DNA of 64,000 nt, taken from contig JANYHT010000045.1 of the NCBI GenBank assembly GCA_025358925.1, forward strand, positions 1-64,000, in the 5' to 3' direction. A program made the translations under genes and the position numbers. This stretch comes from Gemmatimonadaceae bacterium. Lineage in GTDB: Bacteria > Gemmatimonadota > Gemmatimonadetes > Gemmatimonadales > Gemmatimonadaceae. Positions 25,376 through 38,040 of this stretch are shown piece by piece. The notes under the pieces are model-generated. The model was not told where the DNA came from, did no database searches, and was given only the letters and a program-made list of their open reading frames with translations. Numbering within the stretch: the stretch's first letter is position 1; each line of letters begins with the position of its first letter.

Positions 25376-25858
25376 AATGCCACCAGTCTTCCGCGCGACG
25401 CTTGCGTCACCGTCGTAGCATGCGTCTCACGGATTCGCAGAGGAACTTGACTGGCGCGTACGTCGTCATGGCGACCGCAAATCTCAACGGGACGTGTCGA
25501 TCGCTCAAGCGGGCTCCGGCAAAGTGAAAGGCGTACGGCAAGCACCGAAATTTGCACTGCGTTTATTTCAACAGGAGCCTACCTCGCGCTCCCTCATTTG
25601 GTCGAAGCGATTGCCCGCGATCATCGACAACTATGCCGACATTGGTGAGTTCATCGAATGGTCCGACGAAGGCGTGAGCATGGTACCAGCAAACGACGCG
25701 TAGAAGCTGTGGGTGATTACTTCGTGTACGCGCTCACGCATGGACACGCGGTGGTTGAGACGAAGTCACCGGCGCCTCGTGACCGCTCGCGAACATATCG
25801 GCAGGTTCGTACCTTTAGTACAGATTCAGTCTTCCACCTATTTGTTGAGGCGTGCGCC
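25376..25858. other. Region without a supported gene
   Basis: A 69-codon frame at 25494-25703 with a GTG start encodes a peptide with a plausible helical middle (SKRLPAIIDNYADIGEFIEW) but no recognised family, signal or ribosome-binding site. Another frame nearby has AYLALPHLVEAIARDH. These may be fragments of one decayed gene. The last bases hold GAGG at 25847-25850, the ribosome-binding site of the next gene. Confidence 0.35.
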
Positions 25859-26245
25859 ATGGACAACGCGTCCCCCGAAAAAATCGTGTATCCAGCAGCC
25901 GGTCCCTATCCATTCTCAAACGCCATTCGCGCTGGCGACTTTGTGTATGTGTCGGGACAAATCGCGTTTCTCGCGGATGGTTCGGTCTCTTCTGGCAGCA
26001 TCGAAGCGCAAACAAAAATCGTGCTCGAGAGCGTTAAAGCCATCCTCGAAGTGACCGGCTGCGACATGTCTGACGTGATCAAATGCGGCTGCACCCTTCA
26101 GGACGCACGTGATTTCAGCGGCTTCAACACGGTCTACGCGACATACTTTCCCACGGAGCCACCGGTACGTACCACCATCGTCGTTCAGCACGTCTTAAAC
26201 GCCCGCGTCGAAATCGATTGCGTCGCCTTCCACCCCGTTTCGTGA
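25859..26245 (+). CDS. ridA: RidA/YjgF/Rid-family protein
   Basis: The 128-residue protein has the Rid-family layout: GPYPFSNAIRAGDFVYVSGQ with a conserved Ser-Gly-Gln strand, then EAQTKIVLESVKAILEVTGC, DVIKCGCTLQDARDFSGFN, YFPTEPPVRTTIVVQHV with the Arg that binds the substrate carboxylate in active RidA, and VEIDCVAF. RidA deaminates reactive 2-aminoacrylate and other enamine/imine intermediates. GAGG lies 8 nt before ATG 25859. The gene stands alone between debris and the cyclase gene. It is about 7 kb from an amino-acid-oxidase-like gene that would generate imines, although a direct link is only a thought. Confidence 0.85.
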   Translation: MDNASPEKIVYPAAGPYPFSNAIRAGDFVYVSGQIAFLADGSVSSGSIEAQTKIVLESVKAILEVTGCDMSDVIKCGCTLQDARDFSGFNTVYATYFPTEPPVRTTIVVQHVLNARVEIDCVAFHPVS

Positions 26246-26303: not shown

Positions 26304-29300
26304 ATGGAGTCTATCGCGTCGTGGCTCGCGCGATATGGTCTCGAACAATACGTCGCGTCGTTCATCGCGAACGATATCGATGTTGACGTCCTGCCAAGTC
26401 TAAGTGAAAAGGATCTCACCGAGCTGGGTGTGTCGATGGGCCATCGCAAAAAAATTCTCGCGGCCCTCCTCACCGCCACCTCGTCGACAGCGGCCACGCG
26501 GGCAGCGACGACGTCTGACACGCTATCAACCTCGCCCGAGATTACCGCCGCCGGTGAACGACGCCAGCTGACGGTCATGTTTTGCGATCTCGTGGGCTCC
26601 ACCGCGCTCGCAGAGCACCTCGATCCGGAAGATCTGCGCGAAGTAATCCGCGCCTATCAGCAATGCGCCGGTTACGTGATCACGCGTTACGATGGCCACA
26701 TCGCCCAGTATCTCGGCGATGGTCTTCTCGTGTACTTTGGGCATCCACGGGCCCATGAAGATGACGCCGAGCGCGCCGTGCGCGCTGGCCTCGCGATCGT
26801 GTCCGAGCTCAACGAGCGCATGACGCGCGCGCCGTTCGGCCGTGACACGACGCTCGCAGTACGCATCGGCATTCACACGGGCCTCATCGTTATTGGCGAT
26901 ATCGGTGACAGCGTGCGACGCGAACAATTGGCATTAGGTGACACACCCAACATCGCGGCGCGTTTGCAGGGTCACGCCGAACCGGGAACAATCGTGATCA
27001 GCGAACACACGCGTCGATTGCTCGCGGGCAACTTCGTGTGCGCAGATATGGGGGCGCTGGCCATCAAAGGCATTCGTGAGCCCGTGCGCGCGTGCACCGT
27101 GACAGGCGAGCGTGAGTCGGCCAGCCGATTTGCGGCCGCGACCGCCACCGGGATTAGTGAATTTGTGGGGCGCGAGGAAGAGAGCGCACACATTCTGAGT
27201 CGCTGGAAACTTGCAAGCACGGGGCGTGGTCAGGTCGTGCTTCTGTCGGGCGAAGCCGGCATTGGGAAGTCTCGCGTGCTCGAAGAAGTGCGGCAGCGTT
27301 TGGGTGAGGCCGGTGCCCATGCGATTCAGATGCAGTGTTCGCCTTATCACCTCACGAGTGCGTACTATCCCGTCGCGCGCGAGCTTGCTCGTACGCTCGC
27401 GTTCCGGCGCGAAGAACCGGTCGAAGTAAAACTTGATCGGCTCGACGCGTTTGTGTTGCGCACGCTCGGCCGCCCCGCACACGATGCCGCGCTGCTTGCA
27501 TCATTGCTGTCGTTCGATGCTGGCGCACGATACGATGTGCCAACTCTGCCTGCGTTGCGCCATAAAAAGGAGAGCATTCGCGCACTCGTAGACCTGCTCG
27601 AGGCGCGCGCGCGACACGCACCGGTTGTGGTGCTCTTTGAAGATGCGCACTGGTCCGACCCGACTTCGCTCGAAGTGTTGGAAGAACTCATTGGTCGCGC
27701 GGCATCCTCGCCGATGCTCCTCATCGTAACGTACCGACCTGAGTTTTCACCACGCTGGCTGCTCCGGCCGCACGTGACGACGCGCGCGCTGTCGCGACTC
27801 AGTCACGAGGATAGTGCCGCGTTGATTGTCCGCGTGACCGATGGCAAACAACTCTCGGCGTCGCTCGTAGCGCAGATCATCCAAAAAGCGGATGGCGTGC
27901 CGCTGTTTGTGGAAGAACTCACCAAGTTTTTGCTCGAGTCAGAAAGACTGCAAGAACGTGATGGCGTGTTGTACGACGTGGCTGCTGGCGATCAAGCGAC
28001 GATCCCCGCCACACTGCGCGACTCACTGATGGCGCGTCTCGATCGTGTGACGCAAGTCAAAGAGCTCGCACAAATCGGAGCCGCGATTGGGCGCGAGTTC
28101 AGCTACGAGCTGCTCGGGGCTGTAGCTGGTTTGCCGCTGCATGAACTCGACCGCGCGCTTGCCGCGCTCATCGATTCGGGTCTCGCCGTGCAACATCGCA
28201 GCGCACCGGATGCGGCGTTCAGTTTTAAGCATGCGCTTGTGCAGGACGTGGCGTACGCGTCGCTCCTCAAAGGAAGACGTCAGGAATTGCATCGCACAAT
28301 TGTGGGGGTGCTCGAGGAGCGGCATCCCGGCTTGCGCGAGACCGAACCAGAACTTTTCGCGCGACATACGTCCGCCGCTGGGCTGCCCGAGCTCGCCATT
28401 GTGTACTGGCGCAAAGCCGCCGAGCTGTCGCTGCGCCGCATGGCACTGATGGAAGCGGTCGGGCAGCTCAGTCGCGCGTTGGAACTGATCGACGCGCTGC
28501 CGCCGTCTGCCGAACGTGATCGCATCGAGCTACCGCTGCATGCGCTGTTGGGTACGACGCACATGCTCGGCAAGGGCTGGGGCGCGACGGAAGTCGAAGC
28601 TGCATATCGGCGCGCGAACGAACTGTGTCGCTCGGTCGAGCACGTCGAAGAAACCATTTGGCCGTTGTGGGGCGTGTGGGTCTTCCATCACGTGCGTGGA
28701 CAAACGTCACGCGCGTGTGACATTGCCGAGCATGTAGAATCGGTTGCCATCGCGTCCGGCGATCGCACTGCGCGGCTGGTTGCCGCCATGATGCTCGGGC
28801 AGATGTACAGTTACAGCGCCGAGTTTGATCGATCGGTACGCCACCTCGGCAAAGCGCGCGCGTTGTATCTCCCATCGCAGGATCGCGCGCTGATCAGTTT
28901 GTACTCGACCGACTTGCTCTTGGCGATCGAAGTGCACGAATCCCACGTGCGCTGGATGCAAGGTGACCCCGACCAGGCAACCGCGCATTACGAGCGTGCT
29001 CTCGAAAACGCGCAATCGCTTGACCATCCGTATTCCCTCTCGTGGGCGTTGGTGTGGGGCGCGATGGTGTATCTGCTGGCGGGTGACACCGCGACGTTAC
29101 GCGCGCGTGTGACGCGTGGGCTATCGCTTGCTCGTGAGTTTGGATTTGCCTACACCGAAGCAATCGGCACGCTGGCGTGGGGCTGGAGTGAAGCCGATCG
29201 CGGTAAGCGAGAGCATGGCATAACGGAAATGCAGCGCGGGCTCATCGCGTTTCGCGCGACTGGCGCGGAGATCGTCGTGCCGTTTTTCAAAACGCTTATT

Positions 29301-29684
29301 GCGGAGCAGATGGGGCATGTCGGTCGCGTGGGTGACGGGCTATCCCTGCTCGACGAGGCGGAGGCGCAGGTTGAGGAATGGGGCGAGCGCTGGCAGGCCG
29401 CGGATATTCATCGCACGCGCGGCGTGTTGCTGGCTTCCGACCCATCGACCACCCCCGCGGCTATCGCCTCGCTCGAGCGTGCGATACACCTCGCACGCGC
29501 ACAGCACGCGCGGGGCTGGGAACTACGTGCGACACTCGCACTCGCCCGCGTCCTTCGCGCCGAGCAACGTGATGCGGAAGGGTGCGCGCGTCTTAACGCG
29601 GTGGTCCAGCACTTTGACCCCGACACGCAGGCGCGCGAGGTCCGCGATGCGCGTGCGCATCTCGCGGCACGTCACGCCGGTTGA
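26304..29684 (+). CDS. SAM domain/adenylate-guanylate cyclase/AAA ATPase/TPR regulator
   Basis: The 1126-residue protein has four parts. Residues 3-58 form a SAM domain (SIASWLARYGLEQYVASFIA). Residues 85-260 form a class III nucleotide cyclase domain with metal Asp in VMFCDLVGST and YLGDGLLVYFG. Residues 285-650 form a STAND-type ATPase with Walker A GEAGIGKS (about 316-323) and Walker B VVVLFEDAHW. Residues 690-1120 form TPR-like helices. This architecture is common in signalling proteins of soil bacteria: the SAM and TPR parts make protein contacts while the cyclase may make cAMP or cGMP. No membrane span is seen. No cognate effector is nearby. The start is ATG 26304, without a clear ribosome-binding site. 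Confidence 0.87.
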   Translation: MESIASWLARYGLEQYVASFIANDIDVDVLPSLSEKDLTELGVSMGHRKKILAALLTATSSTAATRAATTSDTLSTSPEITAAGERRQLTVMFCDLVGSTALAEHLDPEDLREVIRAYQQCAGYVITRYDGHIAQYLGDGLLVYFGHPRAHEDDAERAVRAGLAIVSELNERMTRAPFGRDTTLAVRIGIHTGLIVIGDIGDSVRREQLALGDTPNIAARLQGHAEPGTIVISEHTRRLLAGNFVCADMGALAIKGIREPVRACTVTGERESASRFAAATATGISEFVGREEESAHILSRWKLASTGRGQVVLLSGEAGIGKSRVLEEVRQRLGEAGAHAIQMQCSPYHLTSAYYPVARELARTLAFRREEPVEVKLDRLDAFVLRTLGRPAHDAALLASLLSFDAGARYDVPTLPALRHKKESIRALVDLLEARARHAPVVVLFEDAHWSDPTSLEVLEELIGRAASSPMLLIVTYRPEFSPRWLLRPHVTTRALSRLSHEDSAALIVRVTDGKQLSASLVAQIIQKADGVPLFVEELTKFLLESERLQERDGVLYDVAAGDQATIPATLRDSLMARLDRVTQVKELAQIGAAIGREFSYELLGAVAGLPLHELDRALAALIDSGLAVQHRSAPDAAFSFKHALVQDVAYASLLKGRRQELHRTIVGVLEERHPGLRETEPELFARHTSAAGLPELAIVYWRKAAELSLRRMALMEAVGQLSRALELIDALPPSAERDRIELPLHALLGTTHMLGKGWGATEVEAAYRRANELCRSVEHVEETIWPLWGVWVFHHVRGQTSRACDIAEHVESVAIASGDRTARLVAAMMLGQMYSYSAEFDRSVRHLGKARALYLPSQDRALISLYSTDLLLAIEVHESHVRWMQGDPDQATAHYERALENAQSLDHPYSLSWALVWGAMVYLLAGDTATLRARVTRGLSLAREFGFAYTEAIGTLAWGWSEADRGKREHGITEMQRGLIAFRATGAEIVVPFFKTLIAEQMGHVGRVGDGLSLLDEAEAQVEEWGERWQAADIHRTRGVLLASDPSTTPAAIASLERAIHLARAQHARGWELRATLALARVLRAEQRDAEGCARLNAVVQHFDPDTQAREVRDARAHLAARHAG

Positions 29685-29688
29685 TGCG

Positions 29689-30894
29689 TTACGCGGCCGC
29701 CATGATGCGCGCCATGTTGTCCGGACTGAAGAACTCTGCCACCGGCACCGTTTGCGCGAACACGCCGAAGTACTTGTCGACGTCGGCTTGATTGTTTTTC
29801 AGTCCACCAAAGAACTGCCCAATCTCAGGCGTCGGCGGTAAAAGTTGCGCCATCTCCGCGGTGAACTGATAGATCGGCATCGTGCCAGCGTCACGCTGCA
29901 CCCCGTAATCGCGCAGCGCTTCATCGAGTGGCCGACGTCCCGACAAGCCATCATCGACGGCGTTCGCTAAGAGTTCCGCGTCGCGAAACGCATTGGTCAT
30001 GCCCGCGGCACTGATCGGATCCACGGTAAGCCCCGCGTCGCCGACGAGCGCCCATCCGGGGCCGGCTGCTGTGCGAAAAAAACTTTCTACCGCACCGCCC
30101 AACCACGCGTCCTCACGCTTACCGGCGCGCACACGCGCCGCCAAACTTGGCGCCCACTGTTCAAGTTCGGAGAAAAAATGCTGCTCAACGTTGTCACGAC
30201 CGGCTAAAAAATCTTCGACGGGCATCGTGACACCGACCAACGTCAAGGCGTCGTTCGTCGGCACCGCGAGAAGCATTCGGCGCAGGCCCGGGATGAACTC
30301 CATCTGTGCCGGGACACCGCTGAAATACGAAAAACGGATGCCCGTTGCCGCGGGAATTTCGTTGTACGCCTTGGCACCCACGGCTTTGGCCACCTTGGAC
30401 GTACGACCGTCCGCGCCTATCACCAACGGCGCGCGCAAAGTTTCCTGCGCGCCACCGTGTGGTCCGCCGCGAAGACCAACCACACGCCCGTTCTCCCAAA
30501 CAACATCGTCCATCAGGAAGTGCTGACGCAGCTCAGCGCCTGCTTCGAGTGCGGCCTCTCGCAGAATAGAATCGAGCACGAGCCGTCGTGGCGCATAGGC
30601 GGCCACACGGTCCGGAGACGGTGCGCATCCCACCAACGTAAACGCGCCGAGGTTGAGCGATCCTTCGAACATCGGCGGACAGCCAGACGCTTGCAACCGC
30701 TCGAGTAGGCCCCATCGCTTCAAGTGTGCTGCCCCACTCTGCCACAACAAATGCGACGACATTGGCATGTCGCTCGGAAAGCTCGCACGATCCACCATCA
30801 CGGTGCGATATCCCTTGCGCGCTAACAACCGCGCGGTCGCAGCGCCTGCACAACGCGCGCCCACCACGATTACATCATGCGTCATCTCAGACAC
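29689..30894 (-). CDS. FAD-dependent oxidoreductase (PF01494/geranylgeranyl-reductase-like)
   Basis: The 401-residue flavoprotein begins with a Rossmann motif VVGARCAGAATARLLARKG, a variant of GxGxxG, and has the second FAD motif GWALVGDAGLTVDPISAAGM near residue 285. The ADGRTSKVAK phrase after strand 6 fits the PF01494 group, which includes aromatic hydroxylases, geranylgeranyl reductases and some halogenases. The halogenase Lys/WxWxIP motifs are not seen. It lies 54 bp downstream of the ThDP enzyme and ends 4 bp from the convergent cyclase gene. Within the cluster it could hydroxylate, dehydrogenate or reduce the product of the ThDP or amino acid oxidase step. Start ATG 30894. Confidence 0.83.
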   Translation of the reverse strand: MSEMTHDVIVVGARCAGAATARLLARKGYRTVMVDRASFPSDMPMSSHLLWQSGAAHLKRWGLLERLQASGCPPMFEGSLNLGAFTLVGCAPSPDRVAAYAPRRLVLDSILREAALEAGAELRQHFLMDDVVWENGRVVGLRGGPHGGAQETLRAPLVIGADGRTSKVAKAVGAKAYNEIPAATGIRFSYFSGVPAQMEFIPGLRRMLLAVPTNDALTLVGVTMPVEDFLAGRDNVEQHFFSELEQWAPSLAARVRAGKREDAWLGGAVESFFRTAAGPGWALVGDAGLTVDPISAAGMTNAFRDAELLANAVDDGLSGRRPLDEALRDYGVQRDAGTMPIYQFTAEMAQLLPPTPEIGQFFGGLKNNQADVDKYFGVFAQTVPVAEFFSPDNMARIMAAA

Positions 30895-30948
30895 CGAATA
30901 ACTCCTGAGCAGGAAGTAATGCCATCCCGTTCTCTCCGAACGACATGT

Positions 30949-32823
30949 TCATGTTGCGGCCTTAGGCTTTGAAGGCTTCGGCAAGTGCGGCCAACCGTAC
31001 GGCGGCATCGCGGCGGTATCGATATTCACCACGATCACCTGTGGCTTGCTGCGCGCACGCGCCTGCACGAGCGCCGTCGTCAAAGCGTTCGAAAACTCTG
31101 CCGACCCCTGTTCGGTGGAAATTGTGAACGCATCGGCGCCGAATCCTTCTGCAACTTTCGCCAAGTCCGCGTGTCCGAGGTTGTAATAGCCCTTCCACGA
31201 CGACGACGACTTGGGATAGTTGACGGTGAGCTCCGCCATACCCTGCGTCACCATGCTTAGATCATTGTCGTTGAGGATTACCCAGATGGCCCCAACACTC
31301 TGTTGCGCTGCGGTTGACACTTCAGCGCCGTGCATCATGAAGGCGCAATCTCCAACGATCGCTAAACAATCGGCGTCAGGTGCGCCCATCTTCGCACCCA
31401 CCACGGCCGCTACGCCAAAGCCCATCGGGCCCATGGACAGCGCGCATTGATAGTGCAACGGTGGATCAATCACGAGATTGTTGAGCGACCATCCAACGCA
31501 ATTGCCGGCATCAATAAAAATGTGCCCCGACGGCATGCATTCGTTGATCACGCGCATCATTGCTGCGGGATGCACTGGGGATTTCGTCGAATCACGGTCT
31601 GCGGTAGACGCCCACGGCGCGTTGGCCACTTTCATGCTGGCGATGCTCGCCGCGCGATTCGGGAACTGCGGCGTGTAGTCCGCCGAGAGTCGATACATGA
31701 GATCGAGCGTATCGGCGGCGTCACCAACGATCCCACGCGTCAGCGGAAAATCACGACCCAACACCGTGCGATCCAGATCGACCTGCACGAACGTCTCACT
31801 CGGCAACAAGATCTTGCTGTAGGCGTCCGAGGCCACCACCGTGGTACTGAGCTCACCCAATGATGAACCAATCACCAGCAGCGCGTCGTATGGCGCATAG
31901 TTCGCGTCGCCCTTCATGTACAGTTGCGGCCAGGTGCATGCCGTCATGCCGTAATTGCGTAGTGACAGCGGATGCGACTCCGGAAAAATTCCCTTGCCAT
32001 CCGGCGTTGTCATCACGGGAATGCTGAAGCGTTCGGCGAACGCAACCAGATCAATCAACCGCTGTGGATTTTCCAACGCACGTCGCGCGCCATTGCCGAG
32101 AAATATCAGTGGACGCTTCGCTGATAACAGTTCATCGAGTGTGTCGCGGACTTTCGCATCGTCGGTTCCACCAGCCGTCGCACGATACTCGTTGACGGCG
32201 CGTGGGAAGTGCACGGTGTACGGATCATCACCAGGCTTGCTCACCATCTGCTGCATGAACGAGCCGCCCACATCGTTCGGAAGGCTGATATGCGTCGCCC
32301 GATTGGGGAGCGAACGACTATCGCGCAACGCTTGCTGCATGATTGTCTGAAAGTTGCTCTGGTTCGTGACCATCCCGCTGTACTCGAGGGCATTCTGGAA
32401 GATCGCGTCCACATTCAGTCGCGCATCAACACCTTCCTGCAAATATCCCTTCCCAAAAAACTGCTCGGGTACCTCGCCCGTGATGAGAAGCACGGGGACA
32501 TTGCCCGCTTGCGCGTTCATCATGCCGGTCAGTGCATTCGTTGCCGATGGCCCGGACGTCGTGATGACCACGCCAAGGTTGCCCGTCACGCGCGCGTATC
32601 CGTCCGCCATATAAGCGGCGCCCGTTTCGTGGCGATTGATCACAAGGTCAAACACATCGCGCTGCTCTTTTAACGCCTCCATGAGGTAAATCGCGGCGCC
32701 ACCCGGAATACCGAAGACCTTCGACACACCTTCAAGTTTGAGATATTCGAGCAACAGCTCGACCACCGTGCATCCGGTGCGCGTGCCGCTGACGGTGGAT
32801 TTGCTCTGTGCGGGTGCAGTCAC
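30949..32823 (-). CDS. ThDP-dependent acetolactate-synthase-like enzyme
   Basis: The 624-residue protein has the three ThDP-enzyme domains: an N-terminal PYR domain with catalytic Glu66 in NRHETGAAYMADGYARVTG, a central domain, and a PP domain with the cofactor motif GDCAFMM (491-497) ending at NDN (518-520). The third Gly of the usual GDG is Cys. It resembles acetolactate synthase and benzoylformate-type enzymes, which join keto acids or aldehydes to a carbonyl acceptor. No ilvN or ilvC lies nearby, so a role in valine synthesis is unlikely. A divergent amino-acid-oxidase-like gene starts 154 bp away. That pairing fits keto-acid supply followed by carboligation or decarboxylation. The start is ATG 32823. 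Confidence 0.85.
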   Translation of the reverse strand: MTAPAQSKSTVSGTRTGCTVVELLLEYLKLEGVSKVFGIPGGAAIYLMEALKEQRDVFDLVINRHETGAAYMADGYARVTGNLGVVITTSGPSATNALTGMMNAQAGNVPVLLITGEVPEQFFGKGYLQEGVDARLNVDAIFQNALEYSGMVTNQSNFQTIMQQALRDSRSLPNRATHISLPNDVGGSFMQQMVSKPGDDPYTVHFPRAVNEYRATAGGTDDAKVRDTLDELLSAKRPLIFLGNGARRALENPQRLIDLVAFAERFSIPVMTTPDGKGIFPESHPLSLRNYGMTACTWPQLYMKGDANYAPYDALLVIGSSLGELSTTVVASDAYSKILLPSETFVQVDLDRTVLGRDFPLTRGIVGDAADTLDLMYRLSADYTPQFPNRAASIASMKVANAPWASTADRDSTKSPVHPAAMMRVINECMPSGHIFIDAGNCVGWSLNNLVIDPPLHYQCALSMGPMGFGVAAVVGAKMGAPDADCLAIVGDCAFMMHGAEVSTAAQQSVGAIWVILNDNDLSMVTQGMAELTVNYPKSSSSWKGYYNLGHADLAKVAEGFGADAFTISTEQGSAEFSNALTTALVQARARSKPQVIVVNIDTAAMPPYGWPHLPKPSKPKAAT

Positions 32824-32977
32824 GGTTCTTCCTCAAACGACAGGGACGCTGCGATCATGTTCGCGGCGAATATGTCGCCATGATCCGCATTGGCACAAGC
32901 AGACGGCAGCATTCGACGTTACGTTGTCTGGCCGCGCCGTTCCAGCGCTGGGACCAATCCTCACGGAGACGAATTCG
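32824..32977. promoter_or_regulatory. Divergent promoter region of the flavoenzyme/ThDP cluster
   Basis: The 154-bp gap separates the leftward ThDP gene and rightward amine oxidase gene. GGAG at 32965-32968 serves the rightward start ATG 32978. No strong -35/-10 pair or palindrome was recognised, so the regulator is unknown. Confidence 0.45.
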
Positions 32978-34591
32978 ATGACCGAACACACCATTCTCGA
33001 CGTTGCCGTTGTAGGCGCGGGGATCTCCGGCATCTACAGTGCGTGGCGCCTCGGGGCGGCATCGCCGACGGCCCGGGTGCAGATCTTTGACGGCAGTGAT
33101 CGCGTTGGCGGACGCTTGCTCTCTGTCGTGCCACCCGGCATTCCGACTGCGCGCGTCGAGATTGGCGGGATGCGCTATACAAGCTCACACGTGCAAGTCG
33201 CCGGTGTCGTGAAATATTTGGGACTGGCCACCGAAAACTTTGTTGTTGGTCAACCCAACAACATCGCGTACGTGCGTGGAAGACGACTGCGTACGAAGGA
33301 TCTCACCAATGCGAAAAAAATTCCCTACGACATCGCACCCAAAGATCTTAAAGGACTCAAAACCGGCTTCCCCGCGCTCGCGGCCGAGCGCTTCTTGCAA
33401 ATCGTGCTCAAGAAAAAAAAGGTCGACCTCAAAACCGTCGACTGGCTGAGTGTCGCGCGAACGGGGCGCTATGAGGGACACGCGCTCACCGATCTCACCA
33501 TGCGCTATCTCTTCACGCGCGCTGTGGGTCACGAAGCTTTTCAGTTTGCGTACGACACTAGCGGATATGACAGCATCTTTTCTACTTGGAACGCAGCTGA
33601 CGGGTTTCCGTGGAATCTTGATGACTACGGCACCGCGGTCACGTACAGCCACGTGACCGACGGCTATCTCATGATGGCACTCAAACTCCAGCAGCTGTTC
33701 GAGCGCGGAGGCGGCAAAGTACAACTGCGGCATCGCCTCGTACGCTTTGACCGCGTGACGCTCGACGACGGAAGCGTCGGTGTACGTTTGGAGTTTGCCG
33801 TCGGCGTTCGAAACAAGCCGGTCACAGTGTTGGCGCGCAAGCTCATATTGGCCATGCCGCGTCGCGCCATAGAACTCATTGAACCGAGCGGTGTGGTGCT
33901 TGATGCCACCAACCGTGTGGTACGTGCGCTGATCGAGTCGGTCACTCCTATTCCGCTGTTTAAGATCGCGCTCGCATACCGAACACGCTGGTGGGAGAAG
34001 CTCGGCATCACCAAAGGTCAGACCGTCACCGACCTTCCAATTCGTCAGTGTTATTACTGGCCCATCGAAGACCCGAAAACAAAGCACGGCGTGATCTTGG
34101 TGTACGATGACGGTTCGGATCTCGACTACTGGGCCGCACTACGCTCGACAAAGCATGGCGGAATTTTCAAAAACGCTGAAGCAACGAATGGAGCGGCGAC
34201 GCACTTGCCACATTGGAACGATTTTGGGGCGCCGAAACTGATGGTGGAAGAAGTGCATCGCCAGTTGCTCGAGATTCACGGTGTGAAGCCGCGTGCCACG
34301 ATCGAACCTTTCTCGGCCGCGTTCATGGACTGGGGAACCGATCCATTTGGCGGCGGTGCAAACTTTTGGCCGCTGCACGTGAAAAGTCACGACGTTGCAC
34401 GCAAGATTCTGCAGCCGATGCCGACTGAGCCCGTGTACGTGTGTGGCGATGCCTATTCACACGCGCAAGGGTGGGTTGAAGGCGCGCTGGCGACAGCTGA
34501 AGAAATGCTCCAAGGGTACTTCGGGTTGGCTGCCCCCCCGTCACCGTTAGTGTCACCACGCGACGCGGGTCGCGCTACAAAGTCGGGATGA
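32978..34591 (+). CDS. Flavin-dependent L-amino acid/amine oxidase
   Basis: The 537-residue protein is a flavin amine oxidase. The dinucleotide motif VAVVGAGISGIYSAWRLG opens it, followed by the RVGGRLLS loop, the GGMR signature (EIGGMRYTSS), and the C-terminal FAD phrase VYVCGDAYSHAQGWVEGALA. The group includes L-amino acid oxidases and tryptophan 2-monooxygenases, which turn an amino acid into an imine and then a keto acid, or an amide. There is no signal peptide, so it is cytoplasmic. GGAG is about 9 nt before ATG 32978. The last 17 bp overlap the end of the convergent KAS III-like gene. The substrate is not certain; the neighbours suggest an amino acid entering a small biosynthetic pathway. 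Confidence 0.85.
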   Translation: MTEHTILDVAVVGAGISGIYSAWRLGAASPTARVQIFDGSDRVGGRLLSVVPPGIPTARVEIGGMRYTSSHVQVAGVVKYLGLATENFVVGQPNNIAYVRGRRLRTKDLTNAKKIPYDIAPKDLKGLKTGFPALAAERFLQIVLKKKKVDLKTVDWLSVARTGRYEGHALTDLTMRYLFTRAVGHEAFQFAYDTSGYDSIFSTWNAADGFPWNLDDYGTAVTYSHVTDGYLMMALKLQQLFERGGGKVQLRHRLVRFDRVTLDDGSVGVRLEFAVGVRNKPVTVLARKLILAMPRRAIELIEPSGVVLDATNRVVRALIESVTPIPLFKIALAYRTRWWEKLGITKGQTVTDLPIRQCYYWPIEDPKTKHGVILVYDDGSDLDYWAALRSTKHGGIFKNAEATNGAATHLPHWNDFGAPKLMVEEVHRQLLEIHGVKPRATIEPFSAAFMDWGTDPFGGGANFWPLHVKSHDVARKILQPMPTEPVYVCGDAYSHAQGWVEGALATAEEMLQGYFGLAAPPSPLVSPRDAGRATKSG

Positions 34592-35588
34592 GCGTGCGTT
34601 CGTACAGCATCGCCACCGTATGCATCTCCATGCCGACGCCGAGCAACACCAGGTAGCGCGTCGAGATCTGGTTGAGAAAGAGCGAAAGGTTTACGGGAAC
34701 AGATGCCGACACCATGTCCGCCAGTTCTTCGTGCGTAGTCACGTACACCGCTGGCGCGATGGCGGCCTTCCACTTATCCGCAATCATCTCTGCCACTTGA
34801 TGTGCAATCACCGTGATGTCGCTCGCCGCAACACCGTTCCGCGCGAGTAGTCGCGCCACGACGCGCGGCGGTGCGGGCACGCCAAACTGCAACACGGCGT
34901 CGCGACCGCGATCGCCGTCAATTTTCATGAGCGACGTCGTAAACGTGTCAGGGAGCGGCAGCGCAATATTCGAAGACGGGCGTGGCCCCTGATGAAGCGC
35001 ACTGTACCAGCTGGTGTCGGTTTCATGCTCCCAATCTGTCAACCGAAAGAGCGACGTGTCAGCGCTTCGACCGACCACGGCGGCACCTGCCGCATCGGAT
35101 GCGGCGACGCACACGGATTCTTTGTAATCCACGTGCTGCGTCCAGTTCATCCCGCACACGATCAATGCGCGAGAGATCGTCCCGGTCGCGATGAAGTCGT
35201 TCGCGATTTTCATCCCATCGAGAAACGTGCTGTACTCGGTGTTGAGCGCGAGAGCACGACACGAGGGTGAAAGTCCGAGCGCATGATGCACCGCCGCTAA
35301 CGCGTTGGGCGCGCTGAATTCACCAACCGAACCGGCGCCGAGCAGTATATCGATCTCCTGCGGCGACACGCTTGCCGAACGGAGTGCATCCTGCGCCGCA
35401 CTGAGCATGATACTCGTCACCGATTGGTCTGGCCCCAACACACGTCGCAACGTGAGGCCGGCGAAGATGTCGCTGTTAGAGCCGGGATGTGCGCGGATAT
35501 AGTCGAAGACAGGATCGGTGTTGTCGCGGATGATCGCGCCAAGGCAGTGCCCAACACCGAGAATCGCACCATGTCCTGTTGTCGTCAT
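34575..35588 (-). CDS. KAS III-like thiolase-fold protein with non-canonical active site
   Basis: The 337-residue protein has the KAS III fold: SAPNALAAVHHALGL, then ALNTEYSTFLDGMKIANDF, VAASDAAGAAVVG, and C-terminal IAHQVAEMI. In KAS III the nucleophile Cys sits in 'AaCsGFlyGL'. Here the aligned residue is Tyr119 (EYSTFLDGM). The HQxN His is kept (His263), and the 'GNTS' Asn position reads Asp291. So two of three catalytic residues are changed, and ordinary Claisen condensation is unlikely. Some family relatives act as acyltransferases or esterases, others bind ligands only. It lies tail to tail with the amino acid oxidase gene, next to the ThDP gene. Its most likely role is acyl transfer or substrate binding in that pathway; this is inference. 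Start ATG 35588. Confidence 0.75.
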   Translation of the reverse strand: MTTTGHGAILGVGHCLGAIIRDNTDPVFDYIRAHPGSNSDIFAGLTLRRVLGPDQSVTSIMLSAAQDALRSASVSPQEIDILLGAGSVGEFSAPNALAAVHHALGLSPSCRALALNTEYSTFLDGMKIANDFIATGTISRALIVCGMNWTQHVDYKESVCVAASDAAGAAVVGRSADTSLFRLTDWEHETDTSWYSALHQGPRPSSNIALPLPDTFTTSLMKIDGDRGRDAVLQFGVPAPPRVVARLLARNGVAASDITVIAHQVAEMIADKWKAAIAPAVYVTTHEELADMVSASVPVNLSLFLNQISTRYLVLLGVGMEMHTVAMLYERTLIPTL

Positions 35589-35697: not shown

Positions 35698-38040
35698 ATG
35701 CACTACTCTGAGAATTTCGGCGGGTCGTCGTCCGACGTCGAACGAGCGCCGCGGGCGCTGGCCCCTTTATACGAAGTCCAGCGGGTCTTGGGTCGTGGCG
35801 GCATGGCCACGGTCTATCTGGCGCGCGAAACCAAGCACGGACGTCCGGTCGCAGTGAAGGTGCTCGATGCCGATAGCTTCGACGACGCCGGAACCGAACG
35901 CTTTCTGTTCGAAATTCACCTCACCGCACATTTGAGCCACCCCCACATTGTGCCACTACTCGACTCGGGTAACGCAGGCGGCAAACCATTTTATGTCATG
36001 CCGTTTGTCAGCGGGGGCACGCTCCGCGTATGCATCGACGGGGGACCGCTCGATACCAACCAGGTCCTTAAAATTGCCGGCGAAGTGTCCGACGCCCTCG
36101 CCTACGCGCACGCACAAGGCATTCTGCATCGTGATGTGAAGCCGGAAAACATCATGATGAGTGGCCGAAGCGCCGTCGTAACCGATTTTGGGATCGCGCG
36201 CGCACTGCGCGCCATTGACGAGCCCGATGCACACTCGCTCGATGTCGGTACTGCGATGGGTACTCCTGCCTACATGAGCCCAGAACAAGCGGCCGGCGAA
36301 CAAGACCTTGATGAACGCAGCGATGTGTACAGCCTCGGCGCGGTTATGTACGAAATGCTCACCGGTGCTCCGCCATTTGTCGGCGACACCGTGCTCGCGC
36401 TGATGGCCAAACGATTTGTCGAACCACCGCCGTCACCGCGTGCGAAGCGGGCCGACCTTTGTGAAGCGGTCGACGTGCTCGTGATGCGCGCCATGGCCGT
36501 CACGCCGACCGATCGGTACGCGAGCGCCGCCGAATTTTGTGATGCGATCGCGCGAGTACGTGTCGCGCTGGAGTCACCGCAGTACGCTGTTATCACCGGC
36601 ACCTCGGCGGCCGTGCTGCCCTCCGTGGCGGTGTTACCGTTCGAAAATGCCACGGGTATCAGTGACGACGACTTTGTCGCAAGCGGGATCACCGATGAAG
36701 TGCTCACATCGCTCGCCAAAGGTGGCCGCATTCGCGTCGCTGGCCGCGGGTCCGCTTTTGTGGTCGCGGGTCAACAGGTCGATGCACGCGCAATTTGCGA
36801 GCGCCTTGGTGTACGCACCGTGCTCATGGGCTCCGTGCGTCGATCGGGACACAGGCTCCGCGTCACGGCGCAGCTGATCAGTGGCGCCGACGGTTTTCAT
36901 CTGTGGAGCGATCGCTTTGATCGTACGATGGATGATTTGTTTGCCGTGCAGGACGAAATCGCCGGGCACATTTCAACGGCGTTGCACGGTGCCTTACTGA
37001 GCACGGTGTCGGCAGCAGAAGCCCCTCGGCCCGTAGCGCCCGACGCGTACTACGCATACCTCCGCGGCCGACATTTGCTGCGCCAACGGACCGCATCGGC
37101 GATGCAGGCGGCGCAAGAGTGGTTCACGCGCGCGCTCGCGCTTGATGCGCACTTTGCGGCCGCCCATGCGGGGCTCGCGGAAACATGGGCGTTACTAGGT
37201 GTGTACGGCGAGCTCGCACCACGCGCATCATTCGACCAAGCGCGTCGCGAAGCGCAGTTGGCTCTGGCGGACGACCCATCGCTTGCCGCCGCGCATGCCG
37301 TGCTCGGGTTGGTACACGCTGGCTTCGATTGGGATCTCACGCGCGCCGCACAGTCGTTTGATGCGTCGGCGCGTGCGATGGCGGAGCCCAATGCGTATCA
37401 GTGGCTGGCCACCATGGTCTTGCTCCCGCGAGGTCAATTCGAAGAAGCGCTCAAGGTGGTCGGTAGCGCGTTACGCATTGATCCACTTTCGTTGGCCGCG
37501 CGTTCGACACTGACAGTTGCGTTTCTATATTCGCGCCGCTTCGAAGAAGCCATTCACGCCGCGCGCGAAACGCTCGAACTCGATCCGCACTTTTCCCTTG
37601 CACACTATTTTCTTGCGCAAGCGTTGAGTGCGCTTGGCGACATCACCGGTGCGGCTGAATCCGCAGGACGCGCGTGCGAGCTATCGGGCCGCAGTGGTGA
37701 AACCGTTGCGTTTGCTGCTTACGCGCACGGTCGCGCTGGACATGCTGAGGAAGCGGCGCGCTACGCAACCGAACTGCGTGCGCGCAACAACGACCGGTAC
37801 GTGTCTGCCACTCATCTGGCTCTTGTCGCCCTGGGTATCGGCGAGACAGACGCTGCACTTTCACACCTCGAGCACGCGGTCGAGGCGCGCGCAACGGAAT
37901 TGATCTGGCTTGGCGTTCGTCCGGCTTGGGCTGCCCTGCGTGAACACGCTCGCTTTGAACACATCATGGCACGCGTTGGCGTCACGACGCACTTGACCAA
38001 CCAGGCCCTCAGTGAGATCGTGCCGCACACGTCGCTATAG
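35698..38040 (+). CDS. Serine/threonine protein kinase with FlgO/TolB-N-like and TPR domains
   Basis: The 780-residue protein has a kinase domain at about 25-280: GRGGMATVYLA, Lys54 in VAVKVL, HRDVKPENIMM (His144-Arg-Asp), DFGIARAL, GTPAYMSPEQAAGE. A FlgO/TolB-N-like module follows (LPSVAVLPFENATGI, then ITDEVLTSLAKGGRIRVAGR, then GSVRRSGHRLRVTAQLI) at about 310-440, then TPR repeats to the end (AAAHAGLAETWALLG, FEEALKVVGSALRIDPLSL). No membrane span is evident, so it is cytoplasmic, unlike many relatives. Members are thought to sense or scaffold through the TPR part; the targets are unknown. No ribosome-binding site precedes ATG 35698. It follows the KAS III gene divergently across 109 bp. 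Confidence 0.88.
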   Translation: MHYSENFGGSSSDVERAPRALAPLYEVQRVLGRGGMATVYLARETKHGRPVAVKVLDADSFDDAGTERFLFEIHLTAHLSHPHIVPLLDSGNAGGKPFYVMPFVSGGTLRVCIDGGPLDTNQVLKIAGEVSDALAYAHAQGILHRDVKPENIMMSGRSAVVTDFGIARALRAIDEPDAHSLDVGTAMGTPAYMSPEQAAGEQDLDERSDVYSLGAVMYEMLTGAPPFVGDTVLALMAKRFVEPPPSPRAKRADLCEAVDVLVMRAMAVTPTDRYASAAEFCDAIARVRVALESPQYAVITGTSAAVLPSVAVLPFENATGISDDDFVASGITDEVLTSLAKGGRIRVAGRGSAFVVAGQQVDARAICERLGVRTVLMGSVRRSGHRLRVTAQLISGADGFHLWSDRFDRTMDDLFAVQDEIAGHISTALHGALLSTVSAAEAPRPVAPDAYYAYLRGRHLLRQRTASAMQAAQEWFTRALALDAHFAAAHAGLAETWALLGVYGELAPRASFDQARREAQLALADDPSLAAAHAVLGLVHAGFDWDLTRAAQSFDASARAMAEPNAYQWLATMVLLPRGQFEEALKVVGSALRIDPLSLAARSTLTVAFLYSRRFEEAIHAARETLELDPHFSLAHYFLAQALSALGDITGAAESAGRACELSGRSGETVAFAAYAHGRAGHAEEAARYATELRARNNDRYVSATHLALVALGIGETDAALSHLEHAVEARATELIWLGVRPAWAALREHARFEHIMARVGVTTHLTNQALSEIVPHTSL

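Follow-up and report, generated by a model that had tools for sequence, protein, structure and literature searches.

In a 64,000-nt window of a Gemmatimonadaceae genome (assembly GCA_025358925.1, contig JANYHT010000045.1, positions 1 to 64,000; genome G000, 96% complete), five neighboring genes appear to form a biosynthetic unit. Its core encodes an L-amino acid oxidase (LAAO), a thiamine diphosphate (ThDP)-dependent enzyme and a relative of ketoacyl synthase III (KAS III) that has lost the catalytic Cys. This trio is conserved in three phyla, and in the genus of the window a second flavoprotein and a nucleotide cyclase-AAA signaling protein accompany it. On balance, we favor the view that the genes are a horizontally spread specialized-metabolism unit whose core enzymes would couple keto acids; its probable product is a small molecule, derived from amino acids, that has yet to be described. 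A sequence-only reading of the window had proposed a small natural-product cluster at this place; a conserved, biosynthesis-like unit is well supported, being kept in two further species of the genus and in two other phyla.

Gene families were assigned by Pfam, NCBIfam and PDB searches, with bit scores judged against curated cut-offs. The sequence-only reading had described four enzyme genes lying together, and all four open reading frames were found (see the table), in a non-random grouping that recurs in two other species. Its labels for the ThDP enzyme and the KAS III-like protein were correct, but those for the two flavoproteins are swapped if read in coordinate order: the amino acid oxidase label was rejected for the first gene, whose product is of the FAD_binding_3/UbiH type, and belongs to the third. 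The four genes do form part of one unit, from which a fifth, the cyclase-AAA gene, had been overlooked. The flavoprotein and ThDP genes are co-directional with a spacing of 54 bases, the ThDP and LAAO genes are divergent with a gap of 154 bases, and the 3' ends of the LAAO and KAS genes overlap by 17 bases. GC content dips weakly across the cluster (~58% vs 61%), and scans for promoters and terminators gave no signal above chance level.

Evidence for conservation came from G304 and G310, two other species of the genus, in which all five genes are clustered. These carriers were revealed by an acetolactate synthase family search over the genus; when 298 Gemmatimonadota genomes were sampled, no genome but that of the window had these types of ThDP enzyme and KAS. 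Identities to the window proteins are 56% (ThDP enzyme), 48% (LAAO), 46-49% (KAS), 48% (flavoprotein) and 40-41% (cyclase-AAA protein). In both species the ThDP, LAAO and KAS genes follow one another on one strand and converge with the flavoprotein and cyclase-AAA genes on the other, an order and strand pattern unlike that of the window, and the window genes with which the flanks were queried have no match near either locus. The five-gene set has therefore been kept together despite rearrangement and relocation, which is the outcome of a neighborhood comparison across Gemmatimonadota that had been set beforehand as a test. G304 and G310 are closely related, so that against G000 they amount to a single independent comparison. 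A profile search found the KAS protein in 3 of 179 genomes of the family, exactly the cluster carriers G000, G304 and G310. Around GH9 genes of other species, none of the tested window flanks is shared.

Gemmatimonadota, the only setting envisaged by the sequence-only reading, does not hold the unit exclusively, as the core also occurs on plasmids of Bacteroidota (Flammeovirga kamogawensis p1) and Pseudomonadota (Rhizobium jaguaris pRCCGE525c). Close ThDP relatives were found in these 2 of 72,556 plasmid records (48% and 44% identity, with the next-best among the matches listed at ~30% or less), full-length KAS relatives were found in the same two records only (35% and 31%), and the LAAO is present on both the Flammeovirga and Rhizobium plasmids (39% and 37%). 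In Rhizobium, the ThDP, LAAO and KAS genes form an uninterrupted run, and after 8 bases a cyclase-AAA gene follows in tail-to-tail orientation. In Flammeovirga, one strand carries the ThDP gene and a second amine oxidase gene, and the other carries LAAO, KAS and a kinase-AAA-GAF-phosphatase gene (domain names read from the protein sequence) with gaps of 3-4 bases. Scans of viral contigs gave zero KAS matches and distant ThDP matches only, and the only KAS match in the genome contigs (L002) was discarded as an antisense artifact over another gene.

Table. Genes of the unit, their neighbors in the window, and related loci elsewhere.
Feature	Position	Strand	Basis or location
SAM domain, class III nucleotide cyclase and AAA_16 ATPase signaling protein	26304..29684	+	PF00536, PF00211, PF13191
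FAD-dependent oxidoreductase, FAD_binding_3/UbiH/geranylgeranyl-reductase-like	29689..30894	-	Pfam, NCBIfam
ThDP-dependent carboligase/decarboxylase, distinct clade	30949..32823	-	Pfam TPP_enzyme N, M, C; tree
FAD L-amino acid oxidase, VioA/ancestral LAAO type	32978..34591	+	PF01593; PDB 8jhe
KAS III-like, catalytic Cys lost (Tyr121), His263 kept, Asn to Asp291	34575..35588	-	Pfam ACP_syn_III; PqsD/FabH alignments
RidA-family imine deaminase	25658..26245	+	PF01042
Ser/Thr kinase-TPR gene	35698..38040		window
LAAO with pyruvate-/benzoylformate-decarboxylase-like pair, L072	7505..11074		G176
LAAO with pyruvate-/benzoylformate-decarboxylase-like pair, L074	9313..12866		G223
LAAO with pyruvate-/benzoylformate-decarboxylase-like pair, L066	3984..7626		Photobacterium
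LAAO near kinase-AAA gene, L067	7992..17367		Nostoc sp. UHCC 0926 plasmid pn3
Cyclase-AAA homologue in LodA-type locus, L052	3641..16168		G307:C243

The ThDP enzyme is a complete three-domain protein (Pfam TPP_enzyme N, M and C), and its cluster relatives are 44-57% identical to it. The catalytic Glu66 and the cofactor motif (GD..ND, Asp492/Asp519) are invariant across the five cluster enzymes, and the three TPP domains, catalytic Glu and cofactor motif together place the protein in the ThDP-dependent superfamily. A firm grouping with housekeeping acetolactate synthase would have told against the sequence-only reading, and the enzyme falls outside that group. In the tree, same-genus acetolactate synthases cluster with that of Gemmatirosa kalamazoonensis, a placement that supports their origin in Gemmatimonadota, and the five cluster enzymes form one clade (support 100/100) on a long stem, loosely beside BbmA and CsmA. 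Grouping the window protein with genuine same-genus acetolactate synthases was rejected (approximately unbiased test, p 1.85e-36), as was membership of the biosynthetic acetolactate synthase family TIGR00118 (252 bits vs a cut-off of 538). The closest solved relative is BbmA (PDB 8x3x, E 4.7e-82). Identity with ScyA was rejected (210 and 224 bits for NF035923 and NF035927 vs cut-offs of 1020 and 1000). The absence of ilv partners described earlier extends genome-wide, with no acetolactate synthase and no ilvC above cut-off in G000. Across the genus, the acetolactate synthase large subunit scores above cut-off in just 4 of 30 genomes, with complete genomes among those that lack it; this rarity suggests that branched-chain amino acid auxotrophy may extend across much of the genus.

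The KAS III-like protein had been described as odd, and the reason lies in its active site. In alignments to the PqsD and FabH structures, Tyr121 occupies the catalytic Cys position. The residue is also Tyr in G304 and G310, and it is Phe in Flammeovirga and Rhizobium, so that the Cys-His-Asn triad of KAS III is broken in every cluster relative. His263 is conserved in all five proteins; the triad Asn is replaced by Asp in the Gemmatimonadota copies (Asp291 in the window) and retained in Flammeovirga and Rhizobium. The window protein scores 81 bits and its relatives 82-97 bits for FabH (TIGR00747), below the cut-off of 292. With Tyr or Phe in place of the catalytic Cys throughout, these proteins are unlikely to form the covalent acyl-enzyme of ordinary KAS III.

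The loss of this residue bears on the xenocyloin-like route put forward by the sequence-only reading, in which the ThDP enzyme would form an acyloin and the KAS-like protein would acylate its hydroxyl. The xenocyloin pathway of Xenorhabdus reportedly combines a ThDP enzyme with KAS III-like proteins, two enzyme classes that adjoin in the window; that pathway is not known to include an LAAO, flavoprotein or AAA partner. Since the acyl-carrying nucleophile is missing from all five KAS-like proteins, which speaks against covalent acyl transfer, we regard such a route as unlikely. It is highly improbable that the genes are chance neighbors or displaced primary metabolism (acetolactate synthase, FabH). 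The mixed strands in the window would suit that explanation, but in three species the gene content is conserved while its order is shuffled, two more phyla hold it as well, the tree excludes the acetolactate synthase grouping, and the KAS lacks its Cys.

Assignment of the LAAO rests on the ancestral LAAO structure (PDB 8jhe, E 2.7e-99) and the Amino_oxidase family PF01593; membership of the VioA tryptophan oxidase family (NF053546) was rejected at 89.9 bits vs a cut-off of 600. The five cluster LAAOs fall on one side of a branch with weak support (58/66). LAAO relatives in G176, G223 and Photobacterium directly adjoin ThDP decarboxylases of other types, and keto-acid hand-over is therefore a recurrent arrangement, which supports such a transfer in the present unit; these pairs are probable two-enzyme modules leading from amino acid to aldehyde. 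The same pairs lend some weight to the idea that the unit serves amino acid catabolism or H2O2-mediated antagonism, with the LAAO as main actor and the ThDP enzyme as mere keto-acid disposal. We consider this quite unlikely, as it leaves unexplained both the flavoprotein and a KAS-like protein that is co-inherited with the same ThDP clade at all five loci. On Nostoc plasmid pn3, the genes of a related LAAO and of a 1993-residue kinase-AAA protein are near neighbors separated by an insertion sequence element, and the locus has neither a ThDP nor a KAS gene. In the window, a RidA-type gene precedes the cyclase-AAA gene by 58 bases. Two papers describe imine hydrolysis by Rid proteins (PMC5619798, PMC5979572), and the window RidA, linked to the unit by adjacency only, is a possible helper that hydrolyzes the imino acid from the LAAO. 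No RidA gene was seen at the G304 or G310 cluster loci.

The FAD_binding_3 flavoprotein has UbiH, geranylgeranyl reductases and flavin halogenases as its nearest relatives, and is a probable tailoring oxygenase or reductase. It falls short of the geranylgeranyl reductase family TIGR02032 (81.9 bits vs a cut-off of 158.8), and apart from G304 and G310, the sampled genomes of the genus lack it. The cyclase-AAA gene is the fifth member of the conserved unit, and its orthologues abut the flavoprotein gene in G304 and G310. Within the genus, full-length homologues are confined to G000, G304 and G310, apart from one in a different setting in G307. PADLOC matches of the protein were discounted as they reflect the cyclase domain only. 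In the G307 locus (L052), the homologue gene overlaps that of a Trp-halogenase-like flavoprotein by 4 bases, and the locus also encodes a Ser/Thr kinase, a ferritin-like protein (PF12902), a radical SAM enzyme and a LodA-like protein, the last called from the protein sequence without a Pfam match; this is possibly another amino-acid-oxidase setting that shares the cyclase-AAA gene type. The same locus holds a 41% homologue of the window Ser/Thr kinase-TPR gene, which runs opposite to the KAS gene and starts 109 bases from it.

The trio might alternatively make a diffusible signal of the α-hydroxyketone type that is read by the adjoining cyclase-AAA or kinase-AAA protein. A large AAA signaling gene stands beside the biosynthetic genes at all five loci (three in Gemmatimonadota, plus Flammeovirga and Rhizobium), and the genes lie close both in Flammeovirga, where it comes after LAAO and KAS at spacings of 3-4 bases, and in G304, where it abuts the flavoprotein gene. 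However, the AAA architectures are unlike each other (cyclase vs kinase/PP2C), such genes are frequent in the genomes concerned, with 19 candidates at first look in G000, and in G307 the homologue is part of an unrelated oxidase locus of the LodA type. We regard a signaling module as a rather unlikely alternative.

Conservation and family membership were observed directly, and for a specialized-metabolism unit we infer all five steps of the following pathway. The LAAO would convert an L-amino acid, perhaps an aromatic one, to the 2-imino/2-keto acid and H2O2. The ThDP enzyme would turn the keto acid into an acyloin or an α-hydroxy-β-keto acid. The KAS-like protein, with its His and no acyl-carrying Cys, would act on the β-keto acid by non-covalent decarboxylative condensation, decarboxylation or cyclization. 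The flavoprotein would then oxidize or hydroxylate the KAS product, and the cyclase-AAA protein would regulate the unit or answer to its product. More speculatively, and with little confidence, a new cross-phylum class of such units can be imagined, in which a Cys-free KAS III homologue performs non-covalent C-C bond formation or decarboxylative cyclization on ThDP-made α-hydroxy-β-keto acids, with the adjoining cyclase/kinase-AAA protein as sensor or controller of a diffusible product.

Several points weigh against a specialized-metabolism unit. The mixed strands mean that the cluster is not a single operon in the window, and none of the cluster genes was recognized as encoding a carrier protein, an acyl-activating enzyme or a dedicated exporter. 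For the ThDP enzyme and the KAS, single-sequence AlphaFold models had predicted local distance difference test scores of 39 and 33, too low for judging active-site geometry. The loss of the Cys allows more than one reading of the KAS step, and in Gemmatimonadota the Asn is changed to Asp as well. Finally, the KAS gene of G304 is frameshifted, which may be an assembly error, and the G310 copy is intact.

With three core enzymes at five loci in three phyla, the unit is a compact, well-defined target in the search for a new family of compounds derived from amino acids, in bacteria that have been little explored. That the KAS III Cys is lost consistently poses a question for enzymology, namely what function a condensing-enzyme fold can have once the nucleophile is gone, and the tie to large AAA signaling proteins may indicate a role in communication or stress response.

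Among known systems, BbmA and CsmA (PDB 8x3x, 8x3z) are the nearest solved relatives of the ThDP enzyme, yet they lie outside the cluster clade, and ScyA of scytonemin biosynthesis is a ThDP enzyme that couples aromatic keto acids but does not include the window protein in its family. The cluster KAS shares its fold family and His with PqsD, PqsC and FabH, and differs from them in having Tyr or Phe for Cys and, in the Gemmatimonadota copies, Asp for Asn. Across the five loci, neither a CqsB2-type carbazole synthase nor a pathway acyl carrier protein was recognized in the clusters, where short open reading frames were partly covered and no search with the CqsB2 sequence was made; on this gene content, a carbazole product would not be expected. 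Unlike the carquinostatin pathway, the cluster has no recognized second KAS III. The closest parallel is carquinostatin biosynthesis in Streptomyces, where CqsB7, CqsB3 and CqsB1 take a keto acid through a ThDP step to a KAS III-like decarboxylative condensation (PMC7466098). Likened by pathway description and not by sequence, the present unit has an oxidase instead of a transaminase and a KAS without Cys. With carquinostatin and neocarazostatin (CqsB7, CqsB3 and CqsB1; NzsH and NzsJ) it would share a common logic that runs from amino acid to keto acid, on to a ThDP-made α-hydroxy-β-keto acid and then to a KAS III-like enzyme.

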